DNA of 64,000 nt from Chryseobacterium sp. CY350. Lineage in GTDB: Bacteria > Bacteroidota > Bacteroidia > Flavobacteriales > Weeksellaceae. The DNA lies in assembly GCF_027945075.1 (NCBI RefSeq), contig NZ_CP116034.1:434001-498000 (forward strand), in the 5' to 3' direction. The notes under the pieces are model-generated. The model saw only the letters and a program-made list of their open reading frames with translations, had not been told where the DNA came from and searched no databases. Positions 46,273 through 60,574 of the stretch are shown piece after piece (within the stretch, counting starts at the first letter, position 1; every line of letters starts with the position of its first letter). The position numbers and the translations under genes were made by a program.

Positions 46273-47094
46273 TTAAGCCTCAATAAATTCCAAAAGATCT
46301 TTATTAATCGTCGGAGCTTCCGTAGTCGGCATTCCGTGAGGGAAACCAGGGTATGTTTTTAAAGTTCCGTTTTTCAGTAATTTGATAGATTTCAAAGCTG
46401 CATTTTGGTAAGGCACAATCTGGTCATCTTCACCGTGAAGTACCAAAACTGGAATGTCGGTGTTTTTCAAATCTTCAGTCTGATCGGTTTCAGAAAACGC
46501 TTTGATTCCGTCGTAATGCGCTACAATTCCGCCCATCATTCCCTGTCTCCACCAGTTTCTCTGCACACCTTCTTTCACGTCTGCACCTTCTCTATTATAG
46601 CCGTAGAAAGGGAAAGTTAAATCAATGTAAAACTGATTTCTGTTGTTCAGAGTCTGATCTCTGATACCGTCAAAAACCGACATCGGAACCCCATCAGGAT
46701 TGCTGTCACTTGCCACCATAATCGGCGGAACAGCGCTGATTAAAACCGCTTTTTTCGCTCTTCCATTCGCATATTTCGCTACATAACGGATCACTTCGCC
46801 ACCACCTGTAGAGTGACCGATGTGAACTACATCTTTCAGGTCAAGGAATTCCACCAGTTCTGCGGCGTCAGACGCATATTGATCGATCGTGTGGTTGTAA
46901 ATATTCTGGCTTGAACGGCCGTGACCTCTTCTGTCATGCGTCACCACTCTGTAACCTCTTTGCAGAAAGAAAATCACCTGTGCATCCCAATCGTCTGATG
47001 ATAAAGGCCATCCGTGGTGAAACATCAAAGTTGGTCCTTCGCCTTGGTCTTTGTAAAAAATCTCTGTTCCGTCTTTTAATTTAAGTGTGCTCAT
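46273..47094 (-). CDS. Alpha/beta hydrolase of the non-heme chloroperoxidase type
   Basis: 273 residues. HHGWPLSSDDWD (oxyanion segment), DRRGHGRSS, nucleophile GHSTGGGE (Ser95), an Asp in LHGEDDQIVPYQ, and FPHGMP with the catalytic His. This is the cofactor-free haloperoxidase/perhydrolase family, which forms peracids from acetate and peroxide in vitro; physiological role often unknown. It has a canonical promoter (TTG at 47184-47182, 17 bp, TACATTTG at 47164-47157) and a further LytTR-type promoter 290 bp upstream. Confidence 0.92.
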   Translation of the reverse strand: MSTLKLKDGTEIFYKDQGEGPTLMFHHGWPLSSDDWDAQVIFFLQRGYRVVTHDRRGHGRSSQNIYNHTIDQYASDAAELVEFLDLKDVVHIGHSTGGGEVIRYVAKYANGRAKKAVLISAVPPIMVASDSNPDGVPMSVFDGIRDQTLNNRNQFYIDLTFPFYGYNREGADVKEGVQRNWWRQGMMGGIVAHYDGIKAFSETDQTEDLKNTDIPVLVLHGEDDQIVPYQNAALKSIKLLKNGTLKTYPGFPHGMPTTEAPTINKDLLEFIEA

Positions 47095-47156
47095 AATTGT
47101 TTATTTTTAATGTTTTGATAATTTTATTTTAATATTTTTTTGTCTTAATTCTTTAG

Positions 47157-47184
47157 CAAATGTAGTCGAGCGAAATCCTTTCAA
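47157..47184 (-). promoter_or_regulatory. Canonical promoter of the haloperoxidase-like gene
   Basis: TTG (47184-47182), 17-bp spacer and TACATTTG (47164-47157) on the minus strand match the Bacteroidetes consensus; 62 bp separate it from the start codon. Confidence 0.6.
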
Positions 47185-47225
47185 CATTGACATAAGATAA
47201 TATCGTTTATTTCTCGTACTTTTTT

Positions 47226-47340
47226 ATTTGGGCAGCTACTTCCGCCTTCCGTTCCCAATCTTTTTTGCCCGACGATTTCAGTTGAATAGAAATTGACAGT
47301 AAGCAAAAAAGGATTTCCACTCAAGTCGGGCTGCAGATTC
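47226..47340. repeat. Probable interspersed intergenic repeat with inverted arms
   Basis: GCCCGAC at 47267-47273 and GTCGGGC at 47325-47331 are inverted arms; between them AATCTTTTTTGC and GCAAAAAAGGATT are also nearly complementary. I recall similar GCCCGACTTGAGTGGAAATCC blocks in other flavobacterial intergenic regions, so I read it as an interspersed repeat. It sits between the upstream LytTR-type promoter and the hydrolase gene. Confidence 0.5.
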
Positions 47341-47381
47341 GGTTTAGATTCACGTTTGCCGTTTCTCTGTCTTAACTGATG

Positions 47382-47446
47382 TAAAACTACTGCAGATTAT
47401 AAAGTTTTTGATTTATCTTTCGACGAACAGGCAAAAATCGTCGTTG
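47382..47446 (-). promoter_or_regulatory. LytTR-type direct-repeat promoter (copy D)
   Basis: Read on the minus strand: CAACGA (47446-47441) and CGTCGA (47425-47420), 21-bp period, with GCCTGTT between, then 30 bp, then the -7 element TAGTTTTACA starting at 47389. This is the most diverged of four copies, and the only one far (287 bp) from the next start codon. Confidence 0.55.
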
Positions 47447-47528
47447 AGTTCAGGAAAGAATTAGTTGCAATTATTTTTTAAAGATTCCCTGAGAAAAAAC
47501 GTTAAATACTAATGACAAACTTCCAACG

Positions 47529-48044
47529 TTATTTCACGTTTTCCCGTACCAGTTCTAATAGATTTTCCGCGCCACCATCGAATTTCTTTCCATTCACAAA
47601 GAAAGAAGGTGTTCCGTTCACGCCGCTCATAATTCCGCTTTCAAAATCTGAATCTACTTTGTCGGCAAGTTCCGTACTTTCCAAATCCTTTTCAAATTGA
47701 GGAATATTCAGTTTTAACTGTTCCGCCAGTTTCATCAGTAAGTTTTCATTTAGATCTCTTTGGTTTTCGTAAATCGCATCGTGCATTTCCCAGAATTTCC
47801 CCTGAAGATTGGCCGCCTCCGCTGCGATAGCCGCCGGTCTTGCATATTGGTGCATTTCAGATAAAGGAAAGTTTCTGAAAACAAATTTGATCTGGATTCC
47901 AAATTCTTTCATCAATTCCTTCAGAACCGGATAAGCAGCACCACAATATGGACATTGATAATCTCCGTATTCTACGATAACGAGGTCGGCGTCTAAGTTA
48001 CCTTGTGCGTGGTCAGTCTGGCTGACATTTGGTTTTAGTGACAT
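47529..48044 (-). CDS. DsbA-like thiol oxidoreductase without signal peptide
   Basis: 171 residues with a thioredoxin-fold start (DLVIVEYGDYQ), active site CPYC (Cys31-Cys34), a helical insertion, and GTPSFFVNG with the cis-proline. No signal peptide, so it is probably cytoplasmic, unlike classical DsbA. Last gene of a five-gene minus-strand unit (bicupin, M17-N, DUF1275, peroxiredoxin, this gene) whose promoter is the LytTR-type copy A; it is 3 bp after the peroxiredoxin gene. Confidence 0.9.
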   Translation of the reverse strand: MSLKPNVSQTDHAQGNLDADLVIVEYGDYQCPYCGAAYPVLKELMKEFGIQIKFVFRNFPLSEMHQYARPAAIAAEAANLQGKFWEMHDAIYENQRDLNENLLMKLAEQLKLNIPQFEKDLESTELADKVDSDFESGIMSGVNGTPSFFVNGKKFDGGAENLLELVRENVK

Positions 48045-48047
48045 AAT

Positions 48048-48509
48048 TTATTTGGTGTTAAGGGTTTCTAAAGCTTCTAAAATTCCGTCTGCGCCAGGAT
48101 TAATGGCTGTTGGCGACAGATAACTCCATTCGATGATGCCATCTTTGTTGATAACGAAAAGTGCGCGTTTGCATTCTCCTTCTTCCTCATCGTAAACGCC
48201 ATACTGCTTGGCGATTTCTCCTTTGGCTTCAAAATCTGCGAGTAATGGAAAGTGTAAATTTCTTGATTGTGAAAATGCGAGATGACACCATTTGCTGTCG
48301 ACGGAAATTCCGAAAAGTTCTGCATCATATTTCTTGAAAAACTTCAAAGTTTCATTATACAAAGCCATTTGGTCGCTGCAAACCGGACTCCAGTCGGCGG
48401 GATAAAAAGCGAGAATCACATTTTTTCCTTTGAATTCGGAAAGCTTAATTTTCTGGTCAGGAGTTGCGTACAGGGTGAAATCTGGAGCAACATCATTTTT
48501 TTGTAACAT
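48048..48509 (-). CDS. Peroxiredoxin (AhpE/BCP-like)
   Basis: 153 residues. Thioredoxin-fold peroxidase with the peroxidatic Cys44 in FYPADWSPVC (the usual Thr before the Cys region is replaced by Ser-Pro). Further cysteines are Cys75 and Cys113, either of which could resolve. It reduces H2O2 or organic peroxides; the DsbA-like protein encoded next may be its reductant. Part of the LytTR-type operon A. Confidence 0.9.
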   Translation of the reverse strand: MLQKNDVAPDFTLYATPDQKIKLSEFKGKNVILAFYPADWSPVCSDQMALYNETLKFFKKYDAELFGISVDSKWCHLAFSQSRNLHFPLLADFEAKGEIAKQYGVYDEEEGECKRALFVINKDGIIEWSYLSPTAINPGADGILEALETLNTK

Positions 48510-48520
48510 AATTTTAGTTT

Positions 48521-49225
48521 TTAAAGTTTAATATGTAAAACTGAAAGCAGTGATCCGCAAAATATTAACAACAGTGCCGGAAGAATCAAAGTCCAGTCTT
48601 TTAAATAACCGAGTAGGAAAGGAGCTGCGAAAGCACCTGCTAAAAAGCCAAACCATAAGAGCAAAAGATGAATGGCATTCGATTTCGATTCTTCTTTTTC
48701 TGCTTTATCAGTGGTCATCGTCATTGTTGCAGTATTTCTGGCCAGGCTGTTCAAAGTTCCGGTTACGAAGTCTGTATTTATTTTTTGTTTGCCTACAGAA
48801 GTTACAATCGTGTTCATTATTCCCATTGAAAACCCAATTGTCGCAACAGATACCACATTATTGATCATATAAAAATAAGCAATTATCGAATAAAAAATCA
48901 GAATTCCTGCAACGATGTAAAATGTTAATATTTGGTTCTTAATTCTCTTCCATAACGAGAGACAAGTTCCGGCATAAATTCCTAAAAGAAAACAGATTAT
49001 AACAGTAAATGAAGTGATAATGATTCCCAGTTTACCGGTTGAAACTGCCGCTCCAAGTGAAGTCGTATTCCCACTCATAAAAGAGACGTAGGTTTTCCAC
49101 TGTATCAATCCTGTTGCATCCACGTAGCCTGCAATCAACGCAAGGAATATGGCTAATCTTTCCTGCATTTTTACTGACCCGGACAGAGCGACAATCTTCG
49201 GTGAGGAAATGATAGGCTGTTCCAT
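48521..49225 (-). CDS. YoaK family (DUF1275) membrane protein
   Basis: 234 residues with six predicted membrane helices and the family motifs GYVDATGLI, FMSGNTTSLG and TDFVTGTLNSLA. Inner-membrane protein of unknown function, possibly a transporter. 11 bp after this gene the peroxiredoxin gene starts; 26 bp separate it from the M17-N gene before it. Confidence 0.88.
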   Translation of the reverse strand: MEQPIISSPKIVALSGSVKMQERLAIFLALIAGYVDATGLIQWKTYVSFMSGNTTSLGAAVSTGKLGIIITSFTVIICFLLGIYAGTCLSLWKRIKNQILTFYIVAGILIFYSIIAYFYMINNVVSVATIGFSMGIMNTIVTSVGKQKINTDFVTGTLNSLARNTATMTMTTDKAEKEESKSNAIHLLLLWFGFLAGAFAAPFLLGYLKDWTLILPALLLIFCGSLLSVLHIKL

Positions 49226-49251
49226 TGTTTTACATTTTAAACAATTTGTTT

Positions 49252-49986
49252 TTATTTGTTTAATGCCCCAATGGCTTTCGTAATTCCTTCTCCTGCAGTG
49301 GTAAAAAACGCTGGTCCGGCAAGCAATGTTATTTTCTCAATCGGTTTGAATGAAGACATTTTTTTATCCTTTAAATAAAGCTGAGTTCGGTACGCATTGA
49401 TAGCTCCGGTCACGCCATATCCTGCAACTTCAGCGGTTGGCGAATCTATTCCCGCATCTTTTAAATCGGTTGCAAAACCATATTTGGTGACACCCAATCG
49501 CAGTGCTTCTTCCATCCCGACACTTGCAACCTGCTGCATCAGTTCTGGAGTGAATCTATTCCGGTCGCCCAAACCGATGAGTAACAGTTTCTTTGCTCCG
49601 ATAGTTCCGGAAGGTGGCGTAATCAACAGTGTTTCCAGGGAATGTCCGGCAAATTTCCCGGATTTTCTAAGGTCTGTGATGAGGCCTTTCAGACTTTCAT
49701 CGAGGTGAACCATTCCGTTTACAGCAGCCGGAAGAGCCGGTGGCGAATTGAAAATATCACCTTCTGTATATTCAAAAACGCAGGCGATCTGTAACGGCGC
49801 AATCTCTGTGGAAGGTCCCTGTACCATTCCTTCGATGGCGATTCCGTCCACTTTCCCCCAGATTTTTGATGTGTTTGCAGGCGTTGTCTGAACGGTTGTC
49901 TGGGCAGAATATATTTGCGGAGTGGAAATAAATATTGATGCAAATAAAAATATTTTTAGCGTGTTTTTAAGATTTGTAGTTTTCAT
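49252..49986 (-). CDS. Secreted protein with only the M17 leucyl-aminopeptidase N-terminal domain
   Basis: 244 residues: signal peptide (MKTTNLKNTLKIFLFASIF..., cut near YSAQ), then the N-terminal macro-like domain of M17 aminopeptidases (IEGMVQGPSTEIAPLQIACVFEYTEGD, LLITPPSGTIGAKKLLLIGLGDRNRF, AYRTQLYLKDKK). The catalytic metal-binding domain is absent. Macro domains bind nucleotides or regulate the peptidase; here it may be an extracytoplasmic binding protein. It lies 45 bp downstream of the bicupin gene in operon A. Confidence 0.85.
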   Translation of the reverse strand: MKTTNLKNTLKIFLFASIFISTPQIYSAQTTVQTTPANTSKIWGKVDGIAIEGMVQGPSTEIAPLQIACVFEYTEGDIFNSPPALPAAVNGMVHLDESLKGLITDLRKSGKFAGHSLETLLITPPSGTIGAKKLLLIGLGDRNRFTPELMQQVASVGMEEALRLGVTKYGFATDLKDAGIDSPTAEVAGYGVTGAINAYRTQLYLKDKKMSSFKPIEKITLLAGPAFFTTAGEGITKAIGALNK

Positions 49987-50031
49987 AATATTAAATTTTT
50001 AGATGATTAAAGTAATGAAATGTGTTTTTAA

Positions 50032-51072
50032 TTAAGGTTTAATGAAAATTTTCTCTTTCGGAAATTTCTCTATTTCGCCATCTTTCAAACCAAAGTTGGT
50101 TACAACAACATCTTTCGGATTTCCGGATAACCATTGGCTCAAATCAATCGATTCATAATGACCGCTGTTGAAGCCAATTAAAATTCTGCAAACCGTGTCG
50201 CCTGTATTTTTGATGTAATGTCCGGCTCCCATTGGAACGTAGCCCACATCTCCGGCACTGAACTGCTCTGTAACGCAGGTAGATTCTGCCAGGAAAACCG
50301 ACATTTCTGCCTGTCCGGAAATAAAATACTGCCATTCGTCCGCATTCGGATGCCAGTGCATTTCTCTCAAAGCTCCGGGTTGCAACTCCAAAACAGAACC
50401 CGACATTGTACTGCTGATTGGGAATTCTTTACTCGTCACCAATCTCTGCAAACCTCCGCCGGGAACAATTCTCGGCTGTTGAGAATGCAAAGGATAACGG
50501 TGAAAACTTGTGAGTTCGATATCAGATTCACTCGGGCGGGCTTCAGCGGTAAACGATATTTCATCAGGAACAATTCCCGCTGCGAAATAGGCTTCCTTCT
50601 GAGGTAAAGCCGCCACTTCTTCCAATGTCAATCCTAAATTCTGAGCAACAATTTTGGGTGGAACAGACGAAACAAAATCAGTTACGCTGAACGTGTGGTC
50701 TTCAGAAAAATTACCGTTATCGAAAATTAAAATGAAATGACATTCTTCCGTTCCCGTCGCCTGAATCGAGTGACCATAACCTTTTGGAAAATACCAAACA
50801 TCGCCCGGCTCAAAATTATCAGTATAGCTGTGTCCATCAGGATGAATTATCGTGGTACGAACCGTTCCTGAAATTACGTAAGCCCATTCGGCGGCGTTCG
50901 CGTGCCAGTGAAGTTCTCGCATACTTCCCGGCTGCAGTCTCATAGAAACTCCTGCAATGCCGATAGAAGCAGGGAAATCTTTGACAGAAGCGCCTCTTGT
51001 AGTTCCGCCATCGTTGGTTCTTGGTTCTTTTTTTTCCAGTTCGTATTTGAAACTTAATGATTCGTTTTTCAT
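50032..51072 (-). CDS. Bicupin oxalate decarboxylase-like enzyme
   Basis: 346 residues, two cupin domains. Manganese motif in the first: HWHANAAEW (His55, His57, Glu62) with His101; in the second: HWHPNADEW (His239, His241, Glu246). The flexible lid near residue 123 reads SEDHT, with Glu124 in place of the proton donor of the Bacillus SENST lid; SENST marks decarboxylase versus oxidase activity, so the variant is worth testing. No signal peptide. First gene of operon A, 47 bp downstream of a LytTR-type promoter. Confidence 0.92.
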   Translation of the reverse strand: MKNESLSFKYELEKKEPRTNDGGTTRGASVKDFPASIGIAGVSMRLQPGSMRELHWHANAAEWAYVISGTVRTTIIHPDGHSYTDNFEPGDVWYFPKGYGHSIQATGTEECHFILIFDNGNFSEDHTFSVTDFVSSVPPKIVAQNLGLTLEEVAALPQKEAYFAAGIVPDEISFTAEARPSESDIELTSFHRYPLHSQQPRIVPGGGLQRLVTSKEFPISSTMSGSVLELQPGALREMHWHPNADEWQYFISGQAEMSVFLAESTCVTEQFSAGDVGYVPMGAGHYIKNTGDTVCRILIGFNSGHYESIDLSQWLSGNPKDVVVTNFGLKDGEIEKFPKEKIFIKP

Positions 51073-51118
51073 AATATTAATTTTTATAGTTGATGATAGT
51101 TTGTCATTATTTCTACTG

Positions 51119-51183
51119 TAAAGCTATCCCGAAATGACAGGTTTTTGAAGAGCTTTTCGGTGAACGGGCAAAATGAGTCGGTG
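51119..51183 (-). promoter_or_regulatory. LytTR-type direct-repeat promoter (copy A, operon of bicupin to DsbA-like)
   Basis: On the minus strand CACCGA at 51183-51178 and 51162-51157, period 21 bp, with TTTTGCCCGTT between; then 30 bp; then the -7 element TAGCTTTACA from 51126. 46 bp separate it from the bicupin start. See the LytTR finding for the four-way comparison. Confidence 0.7.
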
Positions 51184-51420
51184 GGAATTTGAAAGTGGTA
51201 GATGGTTGAGGAGATGATAGAAAAAAGAGTAAAGAATAAAGATTTCATAGTCAGAATTTCATAAGTGTTTCACATTATTTTAAAATAAAAACGATGCCCA
51301 TTCTTTGTATTTCCTTGTTAAGTTTACGCCTTGGTATAACTTATAAAAATTCTAAGTTTTAAATTCTTTGTCTGACTTGCGTTATTTAAGCATCATTACA
51401 ATGCCGATATTTAAAAATAA

Positions 51421-51450
51421 AATCCGTCCCAATTATATTTGAGAAGGATT
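51421..51450 (-). terminator. Terminator of the quinone-reductase operon
   Basis: On the minus strand AATCCTTCTC pairs with GGGACGGATT (one mismatch, one G-U) around AAATATAATT, followed by TTTT. It is nearly identical to the terminator at 53890-53917. Confidence 0.75.
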
Positions 51451-51487
51451 TAAATTTGACTTAAATTAAATAAAAAGCGCAGAAATT

Positions 51488-52456
51488 TTATCTAACCAAA
51501 ATAATTTTTCCCGTGTGACTTCCGTCTTCAAGCAATTGGTGAGCTTCTGCAGCTTCCGATAAAGGAAAGGTTTTGTAAATCACAGTTCTGAATTTTCCTG
51601 ATTCTATGAAAGGCCAGACATTCTTCTGGACTTCTCTTGCCAATTGTTTTTTGAACTCATATTCACGGCTTCTCAAAGTGCTTCCGGTGACGGTCAGGCG
51701 CTTGGACATTACTTTCCAGATATCCAAGTCTACACGGCTGCCACTTACCGCATTGATGTGAACCAGTTTGCCTTCAGGATTCAGAATGTTGATATTTTTG
51801 GCTAAATAATCACCGCCAATCATATCGAGAATAACGTCGACACCTTCATCTTGCAATTCAGTTTCAAAATTTTGGGTTTTGTAATTGATGTAAGAATCGG
51901 CACCCAGTTCCAGACAATTCTGTCCTTTTTCATCAGAACCAACAGTGACAATTACTTTTGAACCCAATGCTTGTGCAATCTGAATTCCCGTAATGCCGAT
52001 TCCGCTGTTTCCGCCGTGAATCAATAACGTTTCACCGGATTTTAAACTTCCTCTCTGAAAAACATTCGACCAGACCGTGAAAACAGTTTCAGGCAAACTT
52101 GCCGCTTCCGCAAAACTCAAATCTCCCGGAATTGGTAAACATTGGCCTTCTCTCACAGCGACATATTCTGCGTAACCGCCACCTGCTAGGAGTGCACAAA
52201 CTTTGTCGCCCACTGTGAAATCTGTCACATCAGGTCCGCATTTTACGACAGTTCCGGCAACTTCCAACCCCGGAATTTCTGCAGAAGCTCCTTTTGGTGC
52301 AGGATAATTGCCTTCCCGCTGAAAAATATCGGAACGGTTGAGCCCGGCTGCTTTCACTTCGATCAATACTTCGTCTCCGGAAACCTCGGGAGTCGGCAAA
52401 TCCTTTACTTTCAAGACGTCGGGACCACCGTATTCTGTAATAACAATTGCTTTCAT
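51488..52456 (-). CDS. NAD(P)H:quinone oxidoreductase (PIG3-type MDR)
   Basis: 322 residues of the zinc-free MDR branch: MKAIVITEYGGPDVLKV, GLNRSDIFQREGNYP, GLEVAGTVV, the NADPH motif IHGGNSGIG (about 151-159) and the SDEKGQNCLELGAD segment. It reduces quinones or unsaturated carbonyls with NADPH. Third gene of the SRPBCC - lipocalin-like - quinone reductase operon under LytTR-type promoter C; starts 21 bp after the lipocalin-like gene. Confidence 0.92.
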   Translation of the reverse strand: MKAIVITEYGGPDVLKVKDLPTPEVSGDEVLIEVKAAGLNRSDIFQREGNYPAPKGASAEIPGLEVAGTVVKCGPDVTDFTVGDKVCALLAGGGYAEYVAVREGQCLPIPGDLSFAEAASLPETVFTVWSNVFQRGSLKSGETLLIHGGNSGIGITGIQIAQALGSKVIVTVGSDEKGQNCLELGADSYINYKTQNFETELQDEGVDVILDMIGGDYLAKNINILNPEGKLVHINAVSGSRVDLDIWKVMSKRLTVTGSTLRSREYEFKKQLAREVQKNVWPFIESGKFRTVIYKTFPLSEAAEAHQLLEDGSHTGKIILVR

Positions 52457-52477
52457 TTTATGATTTTTAAATTTATT

Positions 52478-52819
52478 TTAAATCCTTCTCCAGGTCAGCC
52501 GATGCTTTACCATACGCGAATTCCGGAGGAATGGTTTCTCAGTTTCGAGGTACAGAAATCCATCTTCAAAGCGGACATTTCTCTTCTGTGTTTCTCCAGA
52601 CCAGTTTGGGAAAAGTGAAACAAACATTGTGTGACTTACCGTCTTTTTTTCGTCATCCGTTTCGAAAGGTCCCGAATAGGCAAGATAATCCGAAGTTTCT
52701 TCTGTGTTTTGCTCAGAATGATTTTTCAGGTCAGTGTTTTTTCGGTTAAGATTCATAATCTGTGCCGACATAAAACCTTCAGCACTGTACATAATCAGTC
52801 CTTTTGGATTTTCGCCCAT
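52478..52819 (-). CDS. Lipocalin-like (lipocalin_5) domain, N-terminally truncated
   Basis: 113 residues from ATG 52819: MGENPKGLIMYSAEGFMSAQI, then LAYSGPF, TVSHTMFVSLFPNWSGE and RHRLTW-like end (KHRLTWRR), typical of the lipocalin-like family. The domain normally begins some 20-25 residues earlier with an L-x-GTW motif; here the open frame upstream ends at a TAG just after the preceding gene's stop, so the first strand is missing. It may be a 5'-truncated gene still transcribed in the operon, or translated from this internal ATG. Confidence 0.7.
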   Translation of the reverse strand: MGENPKGLIMYSAEGFMSAQIMNLNRKNTDLKNHSEQNTEETSDYLAYSGPFETDDEKKTVSHTMFVSLFPNWSGETQKRNVRFEDGFLYLETEKPFLRNSRMVKHRLTWRRI

Positions 52820-52872
52820 CGGATGGGAATTTTCGCCACCATTTAAAGGAATTTCGATGAGCTCTACCTAAT

Positions 52873-53430
52873 TTAGAAAGGCTGATTATATTTCCCTGTC
52901 AGAGCCTTGTTTTCGATGCTTTTTGCAAAGTTGGGCGTTTCTTCGTGATTGTGTGCGTCGGAAGCGGCCTGTCTGGAAGCGGCTGCATCGGCAAGTTTCA
53001 CATTGTGTTTTTTCAGATATTCAAACATTTCCGGCGTTGCTGTCGCGTGAATTTCGTTAGTGTACAAAGTTGTCTTGTCGTCGATTTTTGTTGCTTTCAA
53101 TTCCCATAAAACCTGAACTTTTGTTCTGCCGTTTTGAGTAATCGAATCTGAAATAGATAACATTCTGCAGTAATCCGGACGGTGAACAACTGCGACATAA
53201 TGCTGAACCATCAATGCATCTCCGATGGTTTCAACATTCAGAGAAACCGGTTCGCCATCGAAAGTGGAAGAGATTGCCGCGCCGATATGCTGCGTAGAAC
53301 ATCTTTGATATTCCGCATCAGGAAGGTTAAGCAGCCAGTCTGCGATATTTACTTTTTCGATAGGAGCATTGATAATCGCTGTAACGGTAGAGTGGGACAA
53401 TGCGTTTTCGGGTGTTTGCAGGATTTCCAT
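52873..53430 (-). CDS. SRPBCC-like protein, 185 aa
   Basis: 185 residues without signal peptide. Residues 13-140 have alternating strands (TVTAIINAPIEKVNIADWLLN, GDALMVQHYVAVVHRPDYCRML, KVQVLWELKATKID) and a final helix (PEMFEYLKKHNVKLADAAAS), compatible with an SRPBCC/START-like ligand-binding fold; I cannot exclude another fold. First gene of operon C, 43 bp downstream of a LytTR-type promoter. Confidence 0.65.
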   Translation of the reverse strand: MEILQTPENALSHSTVTAIINAPIEKVNIADWLLNLPDAEYQRCSTQHIGAAISSTFDGEPVSLNVETIGDALMVQHYVAVVHRPDYCRMLSISDSITQNGRTKVQVLWELKATKIDDKTTLYTNEIHATATPEMFEYLKKHNVKLADAAASRQAASDAHNHEETPNFAKSIENKALTGKYNQPF

Positions 53431-53473
53431 AATGTTTAAAGTTTAATTGTTTGTACGTGTTAATTTGATGATG

Positions 53474-53538
53474 TAAAGCTACATTCAACAAATTTCAAAA
53501 TTGATTGACATTCGATGAACAGGCAAAAAGACTCGGTG
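53474..53538 (-). promoter_or_regulatory. LytTR-type direct-repeat promoter (copy C)
   Basis: On the minus strand CACCGA (53538-53533) and CATCGA (53517-53512), period 21 bp, with GCCTGTT between; 30 bp; then TAGCTTTACA from 53481. 43 bp from the start of the SRPBCC-like gene. Confidence 0.7.
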
Positions 53539-53582
53539 GAAAAGATAGTTTAAAGACTAAAGGAAAATGAAGGTTTTTAATA

Positions 53583-53870
53583 AAAGTAAATGTCATTTGG
53601 TTAAAAAACGGTCGTTGAGACACAAAAGTAAAAGTCATTTGCTTTCCCGCAGACCGTGGGAGACTTCTGCCAAAGTCATTTGGTTACAAAACACCTGATT
53701 TGTGACCAAAGTAAAAGTCATTTGGTTACAAAACAGTCGTTTTGAGACTTCCGCCAAAGTTGTTTTGTTTCAAACAGGTTGCGGAAAACGAAACGCGAAG
53801 TTTTTTTGGTTTAAACAAAGTGTTTTAAAGCAAATGCAAGTTGTGTTTTAGCTTAAACAGGTTGTTTTGA
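53583..53870. repeat. Cluster of imperfect intergenic direct repeats
   Basis: A unit beginning AAAGTAAAAGTCATTTGG and going on TTACAAAAC, often followed by GTCGTT(TT)GAGAC and TTCCGCC, occurs at 53583, 53625, 53672 and 53708, with weaker copies from 53756 onward (AAAGTTGTTTTGTTTCAAAC). Unit starts are 36-48 bp apart. It lies between promoter C and the terminator of the next minus-strand gene. No coding potential. Confidence 0.7.
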
Positions 53871-53889
53871 AGAAAAATTTAAAACAAAA

Positions 53890-53917
53890 ATCCGCCCCAA
53901 TTATGTTTGAGACGGAT
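53890..53917 (-). terminator. Terminator of the HK - OYE - monooxygenase operon
   Basis: On the minus strand ATCCGTCTC pairs with GGGGCGGAT (two G-U) around AAACATAATT, then TTTTTG. Nearly identical to the one at 51421-51450. Confidence 0.75.
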
Positions 53918-53934
53918 GATATTTAAATTGAATT

Positions 53935-54483
53935 TTATTTATAAAGCCATTTCCTGATCAGTTTCGTATAATTAGGCATTACAAGGAAAACCATCAGAAA
54001 AACAATAATACCGGAATTGAGTAACGCATCTGAATAGTGAAATGCAGGAATTTTCAGGAACCTCAACAATGGAATTGAAACCAGCGGAACCAGAATTGAC
54101 AGTGGATAGATCGCTGACCAGGTCACCAGAAACTGTTTCCAGCGAACGGGAACTTTGGTTTCACTTTCAGACTCGAAAAGGAAATCGAGACCGGATTTTA
54201 TTTTGTAATTGTCATTTTTCCTGAATAGCGGATTTGCTTTCTCAATCATCCTTTTCCGACTGTCAGATTCCATCCAGTTTCGCAGATTTGCTATGGTATC
54301 GAAACGGATGATAACTGTGTAAACGTAAGTCAGATCGGGAATCGGACGTACAATCTGCAAGTCGATAAAACCTGCAGAATGTTTGGTGATGGGTAAGATT
54401 TCGCTGAGCCATTTTTCATATTCAGCCTGTTTGTCATTCAAAATATGATGCGTGATGACCACAGATGCGCCTGGATTTTCCAT
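53935..54483 (-). CDS. Antibiotic-biosynthesis-monooxygenase (ABM) domain with membrane helices
   Basis: 182 residues. Residues 1-100 form an ABM ferredoxin-like domain (ASVVITHHILNDKQAEYEKWL, HSAGFIDLQIVRP, TVIIRFDTIANLRNWMESDSR). Residues 115-175 hold two membrane helices (FLVTWSAIYPLSILVPLVSI, GIIVFLMVFLVMP). This ABM-plus-membrane plan occurs widely; function unknown, perhaps oxidation or binding of a hydrophobic molecule at the membrane. Last gene of the HK operon, 21 bp after the OYE gene. Confidence 0.85.
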   Translation of the reverse strand: MENPGASVVITHHILNDKQAEYEKWLSEILPITKHSAGFIDLQIVRPIPDLTYVYTVIIRFDTIANLRNWMESDSRKRMIEKANPLFRKNDNYKIKSGLDFLFESESETKVPVRWKQFLVTWSAIYPLSILVPLVSIPLLRFLKIPAFHYSDALLNSGIIVFLMVFLVMPNYTKLIRKWLYK

Positions 54484-54504
54484 TTTTTGAGGATTTAAAT
54501 CAAG

Positions 54505-55563
54505 TTAAAATGCTCTTTTATACTGCCAGGGAATTTCGGTTTCTATTTCCAGTTCTTTAGCCGAATGAATCGCAAAATAAGGATCACGAAGATGCTCGCG
54601 GGCGATGACCACCAAATCTGCATCACTGTTGACGATGATTTCATTGGCCTGTTTTGCCTCCGTAATCATTCCCACAGCGCCGGTGAGAATTCCGGTCTGT
54701 TCTTTAATCGCTTTCGAAAAGGGAATCTGATAGCCTGGATAAACCAGATCTTTGCTCACATTGGTAAATCCGCCGCCGGAAGCCGTGATAAAATCTACAC
54801 CATTTTCTTTCAGAATTTCGGCAAGCGCAATGCTGTTTTCGAGAGTCCAGCCTTCTTCGGATTCTATATAATCTACCGCTGAAATTCTTACAAGCAGAGG
54901 CATAGATTCCGGAATTGCTTTTCTGACATCCTGAACAGTTTCTACAAGAAAACGGATTCTATTGTGGAAACTTCCGCCGTACTCGTCATTTCTTTTGTTG
55001 ATGACGGCAGAATAAAACTGATGAAAAAGATAACCGTGACCGGCGTGCAGTTCTACCGTATCAAAACCTGCATCAACCGCCCGCAAAGCTCCTTCAACAA
55101 ATTTTATTTTTAATTCCTGAATTTCTGCGACAGTAAGTTCTTCCGCCAAAACACCGTTGAAATCGTGTGCAGAAGATGATTTTACAGTCCACGCTCCTTC
55201 CTCTTTGGTCAGCGGTTTCATTCTTTCGTTGGGATGTTTCAGGTTTCCTTTTCCGCCGGAATGCCAGAGCTGCATTCCGATTTTGGCATCTTGTTCGTGA
55301 ACGAAATCTACAATGTTTTTCCACGCATTTTTCTGCTCGTCATTCCAGATTCCGACATCACTGAGTGTTGCAAGACCTTCCTGAGAAACGGCTGTACATT
55401 CGGTAAGAATCAATGCGGCTCCGCCAACGGCACGGCTTCCCAGATGTACAAGATGCCAGTTGCCAGGAACGCCATTTTTTGCGCTGTATTGCTGCATCGG
55501 AGACAGAACGATTCTGTTTTTCAACTCCATTTCGCGGAGTTTTATGGGTGTGAAAAGATTCAT
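54505..55563 (-). CDS. Old Yellow Enzyme-type NADH:flavin oxidoreductase (YqjM-like)
   Basis: 352 residues with the OYE barrel: NRIVLSPMQQYSA at the first strand, the catalytic HAGHGYLFHQF (His-x-x-His) motif, INKRNDEYGGSFHNR, and VIAREHLRDPYFA at the phosphate site. It is the short, YqjM-like class (about 340 residues) that reduces enones and nitro compounds with NAD(P)H. Its gene starts 12 bp after the HK stop, so it belongs to the HK operon. Confidence 0.93.
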   Translation of the reverse strand: MNLFTPIKLREMELKNRIVLSPMQQYSAKNGVPGNWHLVHLGSRAVGGAALILTECTAVSQEGLATLSDVGIWNDEQKNAWKNIVDFVHEQDAKIGMQLWHSGGKGNLKHPNERMKPLTKEEGAWTVKSSSAHDFNGVLAEELTVAEIQELKIKFVEGALRAVDAGFDTVELHAGHGYLFHQFYSAVINKRNDEYGGSFHNRIRFLVETVQDVRKAIPESMPLLVRISAVDYIESEEGWTLENSIALAEILKENGVDFITASGGGFTNVSKDLVYPGYQIPFSKAIKEQTGILTGAVGMITEAKQANEIIVNSDADLVVIAREHLRDPYFAIHSAKELEIETEIPWQYKRAF

Positions 55564-55575
55564 TTTTGTTACGTT

Positions 55576-57783
55576 TTAAAGTGATTTTAAAAATATTTCA
55601 GCCTCAGCCAAAGATTGTTTGATGATTGTTTTTGTTTCGCCGAGACTTTTCTCTGAAGCTGGGTTCTGTTCTGTTGTCGTTTCCAAAACATTTAATTTTT
55701 CCTCTAAAAATGGCAGTAAACCCATTATTGCTACACTAGATTTGAGGTCGTGGGCTCTGAGTTTTACCGTCGTGAAATCTTGATTTTCATAATCTGATTC
55801 CAGTTCTGCCAAATGTGGAGGAATATTGTCTAAAAACTGTTGGGTAACCGTTTTCTCAAAAGATGTATCGCCACCGCTTATTGACTGCATATAGGTTAAA
55901 TCAATATATTTAAAATCGGCTTTAGCATTATCTGAATTTAATTCTTGAGGCTGATGTTTCTGCAATCCGAAGGTTGAAATCAATTTGAACAATTCCTCTT
56001 CTTTGATTGGTTTTGAAATATATTCGTTCATTCCCCGGCTCAGGCATTTTTCCCTTTCTCCAGCCAAAGCGTGCGCCGTCATTGCAATAATCGGAATATC
56101 CAGTTTCAGAACTTCACGGATTTGCTGGGTTGCGGCGTAGCCACCCATTTTTGGCATTTGAATATCCATTAAAATTAAATCATAGGTTTGATTGATTAAC
56201 TGTTCTACAGCTTCCAGACCGTTGGAAACAATGTCAAAATCTATATTCCACTGTAACAGCAGATGTTTCATAAGGCTTTGGTTGATTGTATTGTCATCTA
56301 CCACGAGAACACGGAGCGGCACATTTGTTTTGTCTTTATAATAATCTGAACTGACTGTTGAAATCGTGTTCAGCTGCTCTTCTGAAATATCATACGGGAT
56401 ATTGAAAATAAAGTTTGTTCCTTTTCCCTGTTCGCTTTTCACCTCAATATTTCCGTTTTGAAGGATAATTAAATTCTTGACAATCGAAAGACCCAAGCCT
56501 GTTCCTCCAAAATTTCGGGTGATAGAATCTTCGCCCTGGTTGAAACGTTCAAAAACTTCATTCAGTTTTTCTTTGTCGATACCAATTCCGGTATCTGAAA
56601 TTTTAAATCCGAGTGTGATATTTTTTTCGGTTTGAGACTGTTTAAAAACTTCAATATCAATTTTTCCCTGATGGGTAAATTTAATCGCATTTCCGATGAG
56701 GTTCACCAATATTTGAGTCAGTCTTGTTGCATCGCCAATCAAAGTATCAGGAATCGAAGCATCAACTTTGCTGGAAATCGTTAGACCTTTTTCTTTAGCG
56801 CGTTCCAGAAATAATGTTTCCACAGAATTGATTAAACCATTGATGCTGAAAGTTCCGGGCGTGATTCTCATCATTCCCGCTTCAATTTTTGATAAGTCTA
56901 AAATATCATTGATAATCGCCATCAGATTTTCTCCCGACCGCTGAATGGAGGAAACAAATTCTTTTGAAGTTTCATCTAAAGGTCTTTTTTGCAGAAGATT
57001 GGTGAATCCTAAAATTCCGCTTAAAGGCGTACGGATTTCGTGGCTCATATTGGCGAGGAAATTCTCTTTGGTCTGTGCGGCAACCGAGGCTTTTTTCTCG
57101 GAAACATCTAATTCTTTGATTAATAAATGCTGTCTTCTGAACTGTCGGATAATGTGATAACCGATGATAGAACCGCTGAGCACCAATAAAGCAAGGAGTG
57201 AAATGTCGTACATTTTTGCTTTGTTCCCCATTTCCGCATTTTTTCTGCTGAGGTCAGCCATTTGAAGTCTGCGGCTTTTGTAGATTTTTGCGGTGATGTC
57301 TGTAATTTCGTTCGATATTTTTCTCGCTCTTGGATTGGCAATAGAAGTCTGGTCGTCCATATCGCCGATGGAGTGGTAGCGGTGCAGGAGTTTTTCTTTG
57401 ACTATTTTTTTGTCCATTGCCAGTTTGCCCAGTCTTTTGATGAGTTTATCTTCGGTGGCATCTGCGTTGTCTTTTGAAAGAGAATCGAGGAAGTTTTCTA
57501 CTTCGTCAATTTTCTGATCGACACCGTTCAGATGGGTTGTGTCGTTGGTAGCGATGGACGCCCGGATTCTGCTTTCCACGCCCAGAATGTCACGGTCTAT
57601 TTCACGCAAATGATTGCTGGAACTGAGCTCGTGGAGCAGTATATTGTTGTTTTTGATGAGTTCTTTCGTATTCCTTGCCGAATTAATCTGCACTGCAATC
57701 AACAATATGGAGTCTGCAATGAATGTCAAAACAATCAAGTAAGCAAAACGTTTGTTACCCATTACTGAGGAGGTGTTTATCAT
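55576..57783 (-). CDS. Hybrid histidine kinase: CHASE3-like sensor, HisKA, HATPase, REC, Hpt
   Basis: 735 residues. Helix 1 (about 13-32), a helical periplasmic sensor (33-190, CHASE3-like four-helix bundle by impression), helix 2 (about 193-213), a coiled linker, HisKA with His248 (NMSHEIRTPLSGI), HATPase with N box near 361, DTGIGI (397-402) and GGTGLGLSI (426-434), REC with DD near 496-497 and phosphoacceptor Asp540 (LILMDIQMP) plus Lys591, and a C-terminal Hpt with His678 (LRAHDLKSS). All phosphorelay residues are present. With the LytTR regulator encoded 266 bp upstream it makes a plausible complete His-Asp-His-Asp chain. First gene of an operon with the OYE and ABM genes. Confidence 0.93.
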   Translation of the reverse strand: MINTSSVMGNKRFAYLIVLTFIADSILLIAVQINSARNTKELIKNNNILLHELSSSNHLREIDRDILGVESRIRASIATNDTTHLNGVDQKIDEVENFLDSLSKDNADATEDKLIKRLGKLAMDKKIVKEKLLHRYHSIGDMDDQTSIANPRARKISNEITDITAKIYKSRRLQMADLSRKNAEMGNKAKMYDISLLALLVLSGSIIGYHIIRQFRRQHLLIKELDVSEKKASVAAQTKENFLANMSHEIRTPLSGILGFTNLLQKRPLDETSKEFVSSIQRSGENLMAIINDILDLSKIEAGMMRITPGTFSINGLINSVETLFLERAKEKGLTISSKVDASIPDTLIGDATRLTQILVNLIGNAIKFTHQGKIDIEVFKQSQTEKNITLGFKISDTGIGIDKEKLNEVFERFNQGEDSITRNFGGTGLGLSIVKNLIILQNGNIEVKSEQGKGTNFIFNIPYDISEEQLNTISTVSSDYYKDKTNVPLRVLVVDDNTINQSLMKHLLLQWNIDFDIVSNGLEAVEQLINQTYDLILMDIQMPKMGGYAATQQIREVLKLDIPIIAMTAHALAGEREKCLSRGMNEYISKPIKEEELFKLISTFGLQKHQPQELNSDNAKADFKYIDLTYMQSISGGDTSFEKTVTQQFLDNIPPHLAELESDYENQDFTTVKLRAHDLKSSVAIMGLLPFLEEKLNVLETTTEQNPASEKSLGETKTIIKQSLAEAEIFLKSL

Positions 57784-57829
57784 AATTTACTTTGTGCTTT
57801 TTTATCATATTGTTGAAACCACCCCGTCA

Positions 57830-58020
57830 AAAATTCTTTGAATTTTCGCCACCCCTCCAATGGAGGGGAATTCTGAGCTCATTTTGAGGGCGGATCTGTA
57901 GCCCGGCTTGAACGGAGCTCTTTTTTGTAATTGCGATTGCTGAAAAGTTCAACAAATTGCTAAAATTTCTTCGCAATGACAAAAAAAGCGGGAGCCCTTC
58001 GACAAGCTCAGGATAAATTC
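57830..58020. repeat. Cluster of intergenic repeat elements
   Basis: Between the LytTR and HK genes: the palindrome CCCCTCCA-A-TGGAGGGG (57852-57868), a CTTCGCAATGACAAA-type block (about 57969-57983), and CCCTTCGACAAGCTCAGG (57995-58012), a sequence I recall as a very common bacterial interspersed element. No T-run. It may end or attenuate the LytTR transcript or simply be repeat debris. Confidence 0.65.
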
Positions 58021-58049
58021 CAGACGGATTAAGCTGCCCAAAAAACCAG

Positions 58050-58745
58050 TTAAAAAACATTCATTCTCGTGTTGAGTGACTTTCTGTAAGCGTCTGCCAC
58101 GGGAATGAATTTTCCGTTGATCATAATTCCGCCATCCTGCAACGTGTCAATTTTATCGACCGCAATGATGAAAGACCGATGAACTCTGATGAAATTATCT
58201 TTCGGCAGACGTTCTTCCGCAGATTTCATTGTTCCGTGAATGGCGAACATTTTTTCTCTGGTATAAAATTTTACATAATCGCCCATTGCTTCGGCATAAA
58301 AAATATCGTCCAGCTTCAAACGCCTTGTGATATTGGAATCGCGGACGAAAAGGAATTCATCTTTGGTCACTTCTACCTCATCTTTTCTGCTTTCCAGAAT
58401 CGACTGTGCCTTGCTCACCGCCTGTAAAAATCTCGCAGGCATCACCGGTTTCAAGATGTAATCTGCGATATTGAGTTCGAAAGCTTCGAGCGCATAATCT
58501 TTGTTGGATGAGGTGAAAATAATAATGGTTTCTTTCCCAGAAAGTGCTTTTGTAAGCTCGATTCCTGTCATTTCGGGCATTTCGATATCCAAAAATATCA
58601 GGTCAACGTGGTTATTCTGAAGATGATGGTAAGCTTCTATTGCGTTGGAATATTCATTGACAATCGTGAGATTGGGAACCTGTTTTGCCAAATGTGATAA
58701 AGTGGTACTGGCAATATCGTTATCATCAACAATTAGGGCTTTCAT
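58050..58745 (-). CDS. LytTR-family response regulator
   Basis: 231 residues: REC domain (1-115) with DD (8-9), phosphoacceptor Asp53 (LIFLDIEMP), Thr78 and Lys99, and a LytTR DNA-binding domain (about 126-228; FLFVRD, DIFYAEAMGDYVKFY, FIRVHRSFII, FIPVADAYRKSL). LytTR proteins bind two 9-bp direct repeats 12 bp apart (21-bp period). Upstream -7 TATATTTG (minus strand, 58770-58763) is canonical, so its own gene is not expected to need activation. Neighbour to the hybrid kinase. Confidence 0.95.
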   Translation of the reverse strand: MKALIVDDNDIASTTLSHLAKQVPNLTIVNEYSNAIEAYHHLQNNHVDLIFLDIEMPEMTGIELTKALSGKETIIIFTSSNKDYALEAFELNIADYILKPVMPARFLQAVSKAQSILESRKDEVEVTKDEFLFVRDSNITRRLKLDDIFYAEAMGDYVKFYTREKMFAIHGTMKSAEERLPKDNFIRVHRSFIIAVDKIDTLQDGGIMINGKFIPVADAYRKSLNTRMNVF

Positions 58746-58804
58746 AGGAGTAGTTTATTTATGGTTGACACAAATATAATTATTCCTTTCCGTATTTTTT
58801 CCGA

Positions 58805-59278
58805 TTATCTGAAATAAGAACGAATCATCCAAGCCATTTCTTCGTGCGTTTCTATAAGACCTGTGATGAAGTCGCTGGAGCCGTAATCTTTGTATTTATC
58901 AGCAAAAGGCGTCACATTTCCTCTTAAGAAATCGATGATGCTTTCGTGGTCTTTCAGCAAATCTTTCATATAGCCCAAACCGTCATTGGTTCTGTCGCTG
59001 TATTCGGTAAGATGTGTTAATTCCAGATACATTTTCATTGTTGCAGGTGCGTAATGTCCGATTTTACGAAGACGTTCTGCAACGCTGTCAATCACTTTAT
59101 CTAACTGTTTGTACTGCTCCTCAAAGAAAATATGGTTGGCGTGGAAGTTATCGCCAGTCACATTCCAGTGGGCATTTCTTGTTTTGATGTAAAGTACAGT
59201 TTCGTCTGCCAAAAGTTTTGCCAATTGTTCTGCTACAGCTTCTGTGTTTTTTTCTGTAAGTCCGATATTTGTTTTCAT
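58805..59278 (-). CDS. dps: Dps ferritin-like DNA-protection protein
   Basis: 157 residues. The ferroxidase centre is conserved: His37, His49, Asp64 and Glu68 (HWNV, ANHIFFEEQY, KVIDSVAERL), with the same 12/27/31-residue spacing as in E. coli Dps. No long Lys-rich N-terminus, so DNA binding may be weak, but iron/peroxide detoxification should work. Preceded by LytTR-type promoter B with a 46-bp leader. Confidence 0.97.
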   Translation of the reverse strand: MKTNIGLTEKNTEAVAEQLAKLLADETVLYIKTRNAHWNVTGDNFHANHIFFEEQYKQLDKVIDSVAERLRKIGHYAPATMKMYLELTHLTEYSDRTNDGLGYMKDLLKDHESIIDFLRGNVTPFADKYKDYGSSDFITGLIETHEEMAWMIRSYFR

Positions 59279-59324
59279 AATATTGAGATTTTAAGTTTAA
59301 AGCGTTGTTGCTCTAATTCTTGTG

Positions 59325-59389
59325 TAAAGGTCTGCAGGAATCTTACGGAAATGATGGGTTTTTCGGTGAACGGGCAAAATGAGTCGGTG
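59325..59389 (-). promoter_or_regulatory. LytTR-type direct-repeat promoter of dps (copy B)
   Basis: On the minus strand CACCGA (59389-59384 and 59368-59363), period 21 bp, with TTTTGCCCGTT between; 30 bp; then GACCTTTACA from 59332. The repeat core is identical to copy A over the full interval. Confidence 0.72.
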
Positions 59390-59710
59390 GAATTGATATT
59401 AAGGTTGTTCAACTAATTAGTAATGCAGTTATAAAAAGATTGATTTTAACATTATGGTTTAACAGAAAAAAGATTTCAAACAAACTGACAATAACGAATT
59501 AATAAGAAGGATCTGATAACATATAGACGATCAATTTTAACTCGATAAATACCGTTGAAAATAATAAATTTTCTTTTGTATAAATTTTTTTAAAACTTCT
59601 ATAAAGATGATTACTAAAAGTTTATATTCGCACAGTAAAAAAAGATCGCACAAGTTTGAGAAAAAACAATTACTATTTAGGATAATTGATCATGATTAAA
59701 AAAACTAAGA
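59390..59710. other. Intergenic region upstream of the AraC gene
   Basis: 321 bp, AT-rich. TCGCACA occurs twice (59628 and 59647 area) with about 18-bp spacing before the AraC gene. No ORF. Confidence 0.4.
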
Positions 59711-60574
59711 ATGTACGTGCTTTCTGAACAGCTGAAAAAAAACGGATTTAATATCGATTTTCTGCATAGTGCAATCTTGCGAAACGGATCGTTGTTAAAA
59801 TTTAATACTTTAGAATTTTATTGTATTTACCTCATTCTTGAAGATCTGGATTTGAAAATAGAAGGCGAATCTATAAGTATTAAAGCTGGTCATGCAGTAT
59901 TTTTGGGGCCACATAGAAACATCGAATTTTTAGGTGCTCCAAAAGATAATAATATCTACGTAATCGCCTTCTCTGCAACATTTTTCGAAAGATCAAAGAA
60001 AGACAGCATTTTTCTTAATTCAAAGGTTTTTTATAATCATCTTGCTAAATTTACCATTGCACCGTATTTCGGGAGCAATGAATATATTGAGACAATTCTG
60101 ATCCAAAGGTTACGCTATTTTTACGAGAAAGATAAGAGTCTCTATATTTATGCAGCTCATAACGTAATTGAAAATTTGATTTTAGATGCGATGATGCATA
60201 TCGATTCTAATGAAGATTTGATAGACGAAAAATTAGATTTTGTCTCAAAGATCAACTATTTCAATACACTTTTGCAGCGGGACTATAAAACATACAGAGA
60301 TGTTGCGTACTATGCGTCGCAGCTGCATATCTCACCCAAAAAATTAACATCAATGACAAGCTATCTTTATGGAAAAACTGCCAAACAGGTTATTATCCAG
60401 AAAGTTATAAGCGAATCTCTCATAAATCTTAGGAACACGAGATCAACAATTTCTGAAATTTCTTATGAAATGGGTTTCAAGTGCGAAAGTGTTTTTACTC
60501 ATTTTATCAGTAAGCATACGGGGAAAAGTCCTTCAGCTTTAAGAAAAGGAACAAATTTAGATTCTTCAAATTGA
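59711..60574 (+). CDS. AraC-family transcriptional regulator
   Basis: 287 residues. The N-terminus (1-170) is a cupin-like domain (LNF.., ILEDLDLKIEGESISIKAGHAVFLGPHRNIEF). The C-terminus has two HTH motifs: YRDVAYYASQLHISPKKLTSM and ISEISYEMGFKCESVFTHFISKHTGKSP. Target not evident; no closely linked enzyme. Confidence 0.9.
   Translation: MYVLSEQLKKNGFNIDFLHSAILRNGSLLKFNTLEFYCIYLILEDLDLKIEGESISIKAGHAVFLGPHRNIEFLGAPKDNNIYVIAFSATFFERSKKDSIFLNSKVFYNHLAKFTIAPYFGSNEYIETILIQRLRYFYEKDKSLYIYAAHNVIENLILDAMMHIDSNEDLIDEKLDFVSKINYFNTLLQRDYKTYRDVAYYASQLHISPKKLTSMTSYLYGKTAKQVIIQKVISESLINLRNTRSTISEISYEMGFKCESVFTHFISKHTGKSPSALRKGTNLDSSN

Follow-up and report, generated by a model that had tools for sequence, protein, structure and literature searches.

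Why do four promoters in one gene island of Chryseobacterium sp. CY350 carry the same direct repeat at the same distance from the core promoter, and which protein would read it? We addressed this question in a 64,000-nucleotide stretch of contig NZ_CP116034.1 (positions 434,001 to 498,000 of the forward strand), here called the window, which encodes a LytTR response regulator, a hybrid histidine kinase (HK), and a series of putative stress-protection proteins (Table 1). An earlier reading of the same DNA (the original prediction) had named the encoded LytTR protein as the likely regulator of these promoters, and the genomic tests favor this proposal through co-occurrence of sites and regulator, restriction of the sites to carriers of the regulator, conservation at orthologous genes, and lack of conservation of the neighboring AraC and Crp-like genes. 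We consider it probable, at about 85%, that the LytTR protein binds and activates the four island promoters, including that of its own operon, and that these make up a nearly private regulon belonging to a stress island of patchy distribution.

Four operators in the window

All four predicted sites were found at their predicted positions on the minus strand, each combining a direct repeat of 21-bp period with the motif ANNTTTA at one fixed distance. The repeat follows the plan YYCAMCGA-N13-TTCAYCGA, with a clear common unit of 8 bp; YYCAMCGA is the distal half-site and TTCAYCGA the proximal one, and GCCYR precedes the proximal copy only. Written as a 28-mer, each operator has the form CMMCGA-N4-TTTTGCCYGTTCRYCGAA, followed by the fixed gap and then the −7 element. 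Thirty bases separate the last base of the proximal CGA from the first base of the −7 element, which thus starts 31 bp on, a distance that the original prediction had called exact and that we counted at all four sites. The −7 octamers take the form TAnnTTTA or GAnnTTTA and read GACCTTTACA for dps, TAGCTTTACA for both the SRPBCC and the bicupin genes, and TAGTTTTACA for the upstream promoter of the alpha/beta hydrolase gene (CPO). The −7 sequences listed earlier are indeed present at the sites, while the order of that list differs from the order of the sites.

When the window was scanned at up to three mismatches, we obtained four matches, compared with none in 100 dinucleotide shuffles (with the pattern offset by one base). 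The complete genome is a single contig of 4,090,637 bases. Searched with a 15-position pattern that fixed bases of both half-sites and of the −7 element at its distance, it gave four sites without mismatch, none with one mismatch, and 14 with two; the reversed pattern, used as a control, gave 11 matches in all at up to two mismatches. All four exact sites fall within about 12 kb, and with only four in 4.09 Mb, the motif is not equally frequent throughout the genome.

Site geometry across islands of the genus

For comparison, we collected 53 loci, comprising the window and 52 loci of relatives picked by repeat matches and LytTR matches. A position matrix found 152 strong sites (≥30 bits) in these loci, window included; 156 rows scored above 9 bits, of which four, in L074 and L084, were weaker and not used. 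The strong sites stand before dps (n = 53), the bicupin gene (n = 47), the SRPBCC gene (n = 43), CPO (n = 4), and the peroxiredoxin gene (n = 4), with one more at a contig end, and none of the 152 lies inside a recognized island gene. Where the gene in question is held, the site is upstream of it in 53/53 loci for dps, 47/47 for bicupin, and 43/44 for SRPBCC, so that the repeat is kept at the orthologous genes of islands that keep LytTR.

In 152/152 strong island sites, TTTA lies 33 bases from the 28-mer. Half-site identity reaches 0.79 at a lag of 21 and is at most 0.48 at the other lags from 8 to 29. As a control, a strict regular expression (C..CGA repeats plus the −7 element) was run with altered spacings on 67 loci from the genus, a second genus, and four others. 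It gave 160 matches at period 21 and none at periods 17 to 20 or 22 to 25, and 160 matches at gap 31 compared with two in all at the other gaps from 21 to 41. A looser version of the period control, allowing one mismatch, gave 102 matches at −3 and 45 at −4, since the shifted CGA matches in part. Shifting the −7 element in 63 loci left 178 matches at the true place, none at −8 to −1, +1 to +5, or +7, one at +6, and four at +8. The period and gap controls, the shuffles, and the whole-genome count rule out chance as the origin of the layout.

The −7 element itself is nearly uniform. TTTA is followed by C in 148 of the 152 strong sites, and the first two bases of the element are GA in 51/53 dps promoters and TA in all 99 other strong sites, a difference that suggests graded promoter strength, to judge by the letters. 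Between the repeat and the −7 element, conservation is low; the exceptions are runs of A/T and a weak ATT some 10 bases ahead of the −7.

A variant arrangement was seen in three loci (L074 at 3668, minus strand; L084 at 12474, plus strand; L123 at 7277, plus strand), where three half-sites follow one another at 21-bp steps, the proximal one is degraded, and the −7 element is in place. It looks as if the extra copy compensates for the degraded proximal half.

Co-occurrence of the sites and the LytTR gene

Among 173 genomes of the genus, 53 encode a LytTR orthologue (≥80% identity), and 62 hold the 28-mer at up to three mismatches. All 53 LytTR carriers have at least two such matches, whereas none of the 120 noncarriers reaches two. 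Nine LytTR-negative genomes have one match each; eight of these are listed at three mismatches, and G164 has none at up to two.

In the family (320 genomes), the repeat occurs at up to two mismatches in 68 genomes. These comprise all 64 genomes with a LytTR of ≥80% identity, one genome (G174) with a 53% LytTR relative on the same contig as its site, and three genomes with single matches, including G272 and G293. Genomes of the family often encode several relatives of this LytTR, up to at least nine matches per genome (nine candidates per genome were scored). An even sampling of the class, 390 genomes in all, contained three with the exact layout; these are the same three that encode a LytTR of ≥79% identity, and the layout was present in 0 of the 387 others. 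The co-occurrence that had been suggested as a check is thus found in the genus, the family, and the class.

Sites off the island and in distant relatives

A few sites lie outside the island. They stand before the gene of the M17N protein (G043 and G046), a hydrolase gene (G041), and an SRPBCC-quinone reductase pair (G161); in G493, which belongs to the same class and another order, an off-island site on another contig stands before a bicupin piece and M17N pieces. A further site, in G066, precedes CPO on a short contig of its own, which may be a part of the same island split off in the assembly. TTTA again follows at 33 bases in G043, G161, and G493, and the spacing rule holds exactly in islands and within one base elsewhere. 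The M17N protein thus recurs as an off-island target in G043, G046, and, as pieces, G493.

The same system was found in Flavobacterium sp. ACN6 and two Sphingobacterium records. In Dyadobacter sp. CY356, whose LytTR is 66% identical, a perfect layout precedes a gene for a 69% identical Dps, and a two-mismatch layout lies between the LytTR and kinase genes. Sphingobacterium, Dyadobacter, and Chitinophaga belong to orders other than that of Chryseobacterium, and LytTR-kinase pairs 52 to 66% identical in other orders have similar sites beside them. In total, 11 loci with a LytTR 45 to 66% identical (L277, a repeat of L134, was not counted) gave 10 layout matches at up to two mismatches, in seven loci and 205 kb, compared with three matches in 1.15 Mb around 65 LytTRs of ≤40% identity. 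Seven of the 10 are found in the LytTR-HK interval, directly behind HK, or in front of dps; the L127 match and two of the four L125 matches are not beside LytTR. The kinase gene lies within about 3.3 kb downstream of LytTR in 11 of 13 named relatives, one of them cut by a contig end; only a short kinase-like open reading frame was matched in L131 and L133.

Proposed mechanism

In our model, the HK would phosphorylate the LytTR regulator through a phosphorelay; the adjoining kinase combines HisKA, ATPase, receiver, and Hpt domains (Pfam), the make-up of a multistep phosphorelay. The LytTR protein would then bind the direct repeat, one protomer per half-site. The −7 element of Flavobacterium sigma-A promoters is TAnnTTTG, at −12 to −5 (PMC9723704). 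If TAnnTTTA is likewise placed at −12 to −5, the repeat would span about −71 to −43, the distal half-site covering roughly −71 to −64 and the proximal one −50 to −43, an offset of two helical turns.

The targets would be sigma-A-type promoters with a weak −7 element (TAnnTTTA or GAnnTTTA) and mostly no recognizable −33; a TTG near −33 occurs in 2/53 dps and 0/47 bicupin promoters. Three features point to activation via contact with RNA polymerase: the position of the repeat, its almost constant distance, and the poor core promoter. Four units would respond: dps-LytTR-HK, switched on by its own regulator; SRPBCC-lipocalin-quinone reductase; bicupin-M17N-DUF1275-peroxiredoxin-DsbA; and the upstream promoter of CPO. 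Few or no further targets of this LytTR would be expected in the CY350 genome. Since dps, LytTR, and the kinase gene lie in series behind operator 1, positive feedback would be expected, and the nature of the target genes suggests a response to oxidative or electrophile stress. Regulator, operators, and targets would form a stress-protection module whose parts are gained, lost, and exchanged jointly.

A regulon of an extracytoplasmic function sigma factor was also considered and rejected: none of the 20 window proteins scanned with Pfam has a sigma-factor domain, and the −7 element is sigma-A-like. A PDB search returned receiver-domain relatives only, among the best 60 of 199 matches.

Alternatives to activation by LytTR

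An alternative that we consider unlikely is that LytTR binds the repeat and represses, or toggles between repression and activation. LytTR repressors acting on identical repeats exist, as with PlnD beside the activator PlnC (PMC2714321), and the sign of regulation is read here from sequence. However, the repeat lies upstream of the promoter core, not over it; its spacing to the −7 element is the same at every strong island site, as RNA polymerase contact would require; and the promoters themselves look poor, with TTTA in place of TTTG, GA at the start of most dps −7 elements, and mostly no TTG near −33 before dps and bicupin.

Still less likely is binding by another regulator (AraC, Crp/Fnr, or TetR nearby, or a housekeeping factor), the repeat merely traveling with the island. 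AraC and Crp-like genes do lie beside dps, a TetR gene lies beyond CPO, and an island that moves as a unit would produce co-occurrence with LytTR in any case, so co-occurrence alone does not decide the matter. The adjacent genes are, however, not conserved with the island: AraC is present in 0/52 of the relatives' loci and the Crp-like gene in 2/52, at ≤51% identity. Since 49 of the 52 loci extend at least 3 kb upstream of dps, this absence is a fair test. By comparison, of the DNA-binding proteins among the 21 compared, LytTR alone is present in 52/52 loci. Sites away from the island would be expected of a housekeeping factor; the CY350 genome has none at zero or one mismatch, and none occur in the other 387 class genomes. 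Furthermore, the repeat adjoins distant LytTR-HK pairs in Dyadobacter and Chitinophaga whose surroundings share little else with the island. Locus conservation and the genome and class scans thus reject both the adjacent AraC and Crp-like regulators and a housekeeping factor.

It is highly improbable that the 65-bp blocks are alike through recent promoter duplication within the island, with no regulatory code, and we reject this reading: two of the four window 28-mers (dps and bicupin) are identical, but over the 152 sites the bases between repeat and −7 element are mostly poorly conserved while repeat and −7 stay fixed, and the layout is also found in another order (G493) and in front of off-island genes.

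Observations that weigh against the proposed regulon

Activation by LytTR, the reading that we prefer, has to be weighed against a number of observations, some of which concern the sites. SRPBCC promoters mostly (29/43) have a TTG near −33, so a missing −33 is the rule only for dps and bicupin. The distal half-site lacks the GCCYR of the proximal one, and the two halves are therefore not equivalent. The CPO promoter carries a site in only about 6/53 islands, and one 24.7-bit match (L092) lies within a gene, without a −7 element. The G174 site has TTCA in place of TTTA, and the off-island distance to TTTA is 32 in G046 and 34 in G041 and G066.

Other points concern genomes that lack LytTR. In one of them, G144, a degenerate repeat (20.7 bits) and an intact −7 element remain upstream of CPO (L213/L120), perhaps as a decaying relic. 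Few island genes are left in such genomes in which to look for sites: no SRPBCC match at E ≤ 1e-40 was found in 80 of the 120 LytTR-negative genomes (a search run without a positive control), and a Dps relative at E ≤ 1e-40 was present in only 2 of 30, without a site. In the same 80 genomes, bicupin was represented by 62 to 65% identical paralogues in 11, with no layout site in those loci. A CPO homologue at E ≤ 1e-100 was present in 29 of 31 genomes (30 LytTR-negative ones and G144, added for its known site), and of 30 CPO loci read in LytTR-negative genomes, only that of G144 has a (degenerate) site. CPO is a poor test gene here because most LytTR-positive islands also lack a site before it. 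In the genus, the island seems, from these comparisons, to be lost as a whole with LytTR. The co-occurrence seen there is therefore partly co-inheritance, and its Fisher values ignore phylogeny. TetR was found in 0/52 loci, but only 3 of the 50 loci with CPO extend that far downstream, so its absence says little, and its conservation can hardly be assessed.

The distant matches call for similar caution. No layout site at up to two mismatches was found in 4 of the 11 loci at 45 to 66% identity (two Pedobacter, Niastella, and one Chitinophagaceae), nor in L275 and L276 (LytTR 50 to 53%), and eight loci at 40 to 45% (L278 to L285) gave two matches, each with two mismatches. In the same 11 loci, shifted −7 controls gave 0 to 5 matches per shift, with a mean of about 2, and some of the 10 distant matches may therefore be due to chance.

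Gene content and structure of the island

When 21 window proteins were compared against the 52 relatives' loci, Dps, LytTR, and HK were found in 52/52 and were the only compared proteins kept in all. The others follow with CPO in 50, ABM and DsbA in 49 each, bicupin in 46, DUF1275 in 45, peroxiredoxin in 44, SRPBCC in 43, and the old yellow enzyme in 28 of the 52 loci.

TABLE 1 Features of the LytTR island (positions are those of the window)
Feature	Position	Strand	Evidence or remark
CPO, alpha/beta hydrolase ("haloperoxidase-like")	46273–47094	−	Pfam Abhydrolase_1
−7 of upstream CPO promoter	47382–47389	−	TAGTTTTA(CA)
Operator 4	47419–47446	−	325 bp upstream of CPO start
DsbA-like thioredoxin-fold protein	47529–48044	−	Pfam
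Peroxiredoxin (AhpC/TSA)	48048–48509	−	Pfam
DUF1275 protein	48521–49225	−	Pfam
M17N protein, 244 aa	49252–49986	−	Pfam Peptidase_M17_N; only the N-terminal domain of M17 (leucyl) aminopeptidase matched
Bicupin, oxalate decarboxylase family	50032–51072	−	TIGR03404, 361 bits (cutoff, 254)
−7 of bicupin promoter	51119–51126	−	TAGCTTTA(CA)
Operator 3	51156–51183	−	Upstream of bicupin to DsbA-like genes
Zinc-type quinone oxidoreductase/alcohol dehydrogenase-like protein	51488–52456	−	Pfam ADH_zinc_N_2, ADH_N
Lipocalin-like protein	52478–52819	−	Pfam Lipocalin_5
"SRPBCC" protein, 185 aa	52873–53430	−	Label from the original prediction; no Pfam or NCBIfam match
−7 of SRPBCC promoter	53474–53481	−	TAGCTTTA(CA)
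Operator 2	53511–53538	−	Upstream of SRPBCC-lipocalin-quinone reductase genes
ABM-like monooxygenase-domain protein	53935–54483	−	Just under Pfam cutoff
Old yellow enzyme family NADH:flavin oxidoreductase	54505–55563	−	Pfam Oxidored_FMN
Hybrid histidine kinase (HK), 735 aa	55576–57783	−	Pfam HisKA, HATPase_c, Response_reg, Hpt; proposed partner
LytTR response regulator, 231 aa	58050–58745	−	Pfam Response_reg (PF00072), 2.1e-21; LytTR (PF04397), 1.7e-19; proposed activator
Dps/ferritin-like protein	58805–59278	−	Pfam Ferritin; first gene of dps-LytTR-HK series
−7 of dps promoter	59325–59332	−	GACCTTTA(CA)
Operator 1	59362–59389	−	Upstream of dps; half-sites 59384–59391 and 59363–59370
AraC gene	59711–60574		Beside dps
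Crp-like gene	60853–61512		Beside dps

In one locus (L071, from G108), an inversion relative to Dps-LytTR-kinase has turned round the effector half (CPO through SRPBCC), sites and genes alike. DNA identity to the window is 92.6 to 94% in the effector half and 74 to 78% in the regulator half. Given these unequal identities, the halves seem to have been exchanged separately, and L071 would be a mosaic island.

The CPO leader has features of its own. Near the gene, a canonical-looking −7 element, TACATTTG, lies at 47157 to 47164 on the minus strand, and CPO may thus have two promoters, the upstream one with operator 4 and another with its own TACATTTG. An 18-bp element, GCAGCCCGACTTGAGTGG, at 47317 to 47334 (minus strand) is found again in many loci of relatives and resembles a REP-type repeat.

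Significance

Taken as a whole, the comparative evidence indicates that this is a real, conserved, and almost private LytTR regulon. In the literature searched (titles and the openings of abstracts, among the matches listed), no LytTR operator or regulon is described in Bacteroidota. The operator, its Bacteroidota setting, and the regulon thus appear to be undescribed there; the earlier statement that no description was known stands within this literature and extends no further. The operator, the spacing rule, and the probable regulator could all be read from comparative genomics alone, and the regulon is therefore ready for direct test. Fixed geometry combined with an off-consensus −7 element provides a concrete model of how a LytTR activator might work on the unusual −33/−7 promoters of Bacteroidota. 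Regulator, operators, and targets are kept as one module, which seems to pass from one species to another and probably across orders as well.

A wider reading is tentative, and we would not yet put it at even odds. A Bacteroidota-wide clade of LytTR-hybrid-kinase pairs might use a 21-bp-period repeat 31 bp before a TTTA-type −7 element, usually without a −33, with LytTR replacing −33 recognition. In one branch, this arrangement might have come to serve a self-contained, horizontally moving stress island as its private switch, with next to no control over the rest of the host.

Comparison with known LytTR systems

LytTR regulators recognize direct repeats of 9 to 11 nucleotides separated by spacers of 11 to 13 nucleotides (PMC4847170, PMC2714321), mostly located 10 bp before the −35 element with a 12-bp spacer (PMC6193735), and the available part of one source reports no common consensus across LytTR sites (PMC4847170). 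The regulon described here shares with such systems a protein with receiver and LytTR domains, spaced direct repeats, a set distance to the core promoter, and an operator that tracks the regulator. As in the pln, AgrA, and YpdB-yhjX systems, a LytTR-domain response regulator is paired with two 21-bp-period direct repeats just upstream of the core promoter. The pln repeats consist of 9 bp with a 12-bp spacer, and the right repeat is better conserved than the left, as is the case here (PMC2714321). The center of the AgrA repeat lies near −60 (PMC4227749); here it would lie at about −57 if the −7 box is at −12 to −5. Relative to the Flavobacterium sigma-A promoter (PMC9723704), TA and TTT are common to the −7 elements and TTTA replaces TTTG.

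Unlike AgrA, Pln, and YpdB, the system in Chryseobacterium has another operator sequence, works on Bacteroidota −33/−7 promoters rather than −35/−10 promoters, and includes a hybrid HisKA-REC-Hpt kinase. The targets also differ, looking like stress-protection enzymes here but being quorum-sensing, bacteriocin, or transport genes in the other systems. AlgR of Pseudomonas aeruginosa is a LytTR response regulator as well. Its core site, CCGTTCGTC (PMC4064291), is the same at 8 of 9 positions as the proximal half of operator 4, CTGTTCGTC, and at 7 of 9 as the proximal halves of operators 1 and 3, CCGTTCACC, which is a resemblance only. In contrast to the arrangement here, AlgR sites are scattered (for example, at −470, −394, and −45 for algD), with no fixed direct repeat before the core in the part of the source available (PMC4064291).

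The LytTR Regulatory Systems HdrRM and BrsRM combine 12-bp-spaced direct repeats with positive autoregulation (PMC6193735), as proposed here. Their partner is a membrane inhibitor protein, whereas the Chryseobacterium system has a hybrid histidine kinase and a regulator with a receiver domain (Pfam), which sets it apart from the HdrRM type. Judged by its sequence features, the regulon would work like other LytTR systems, and its predicted architecture is standard for LytTR regulators.

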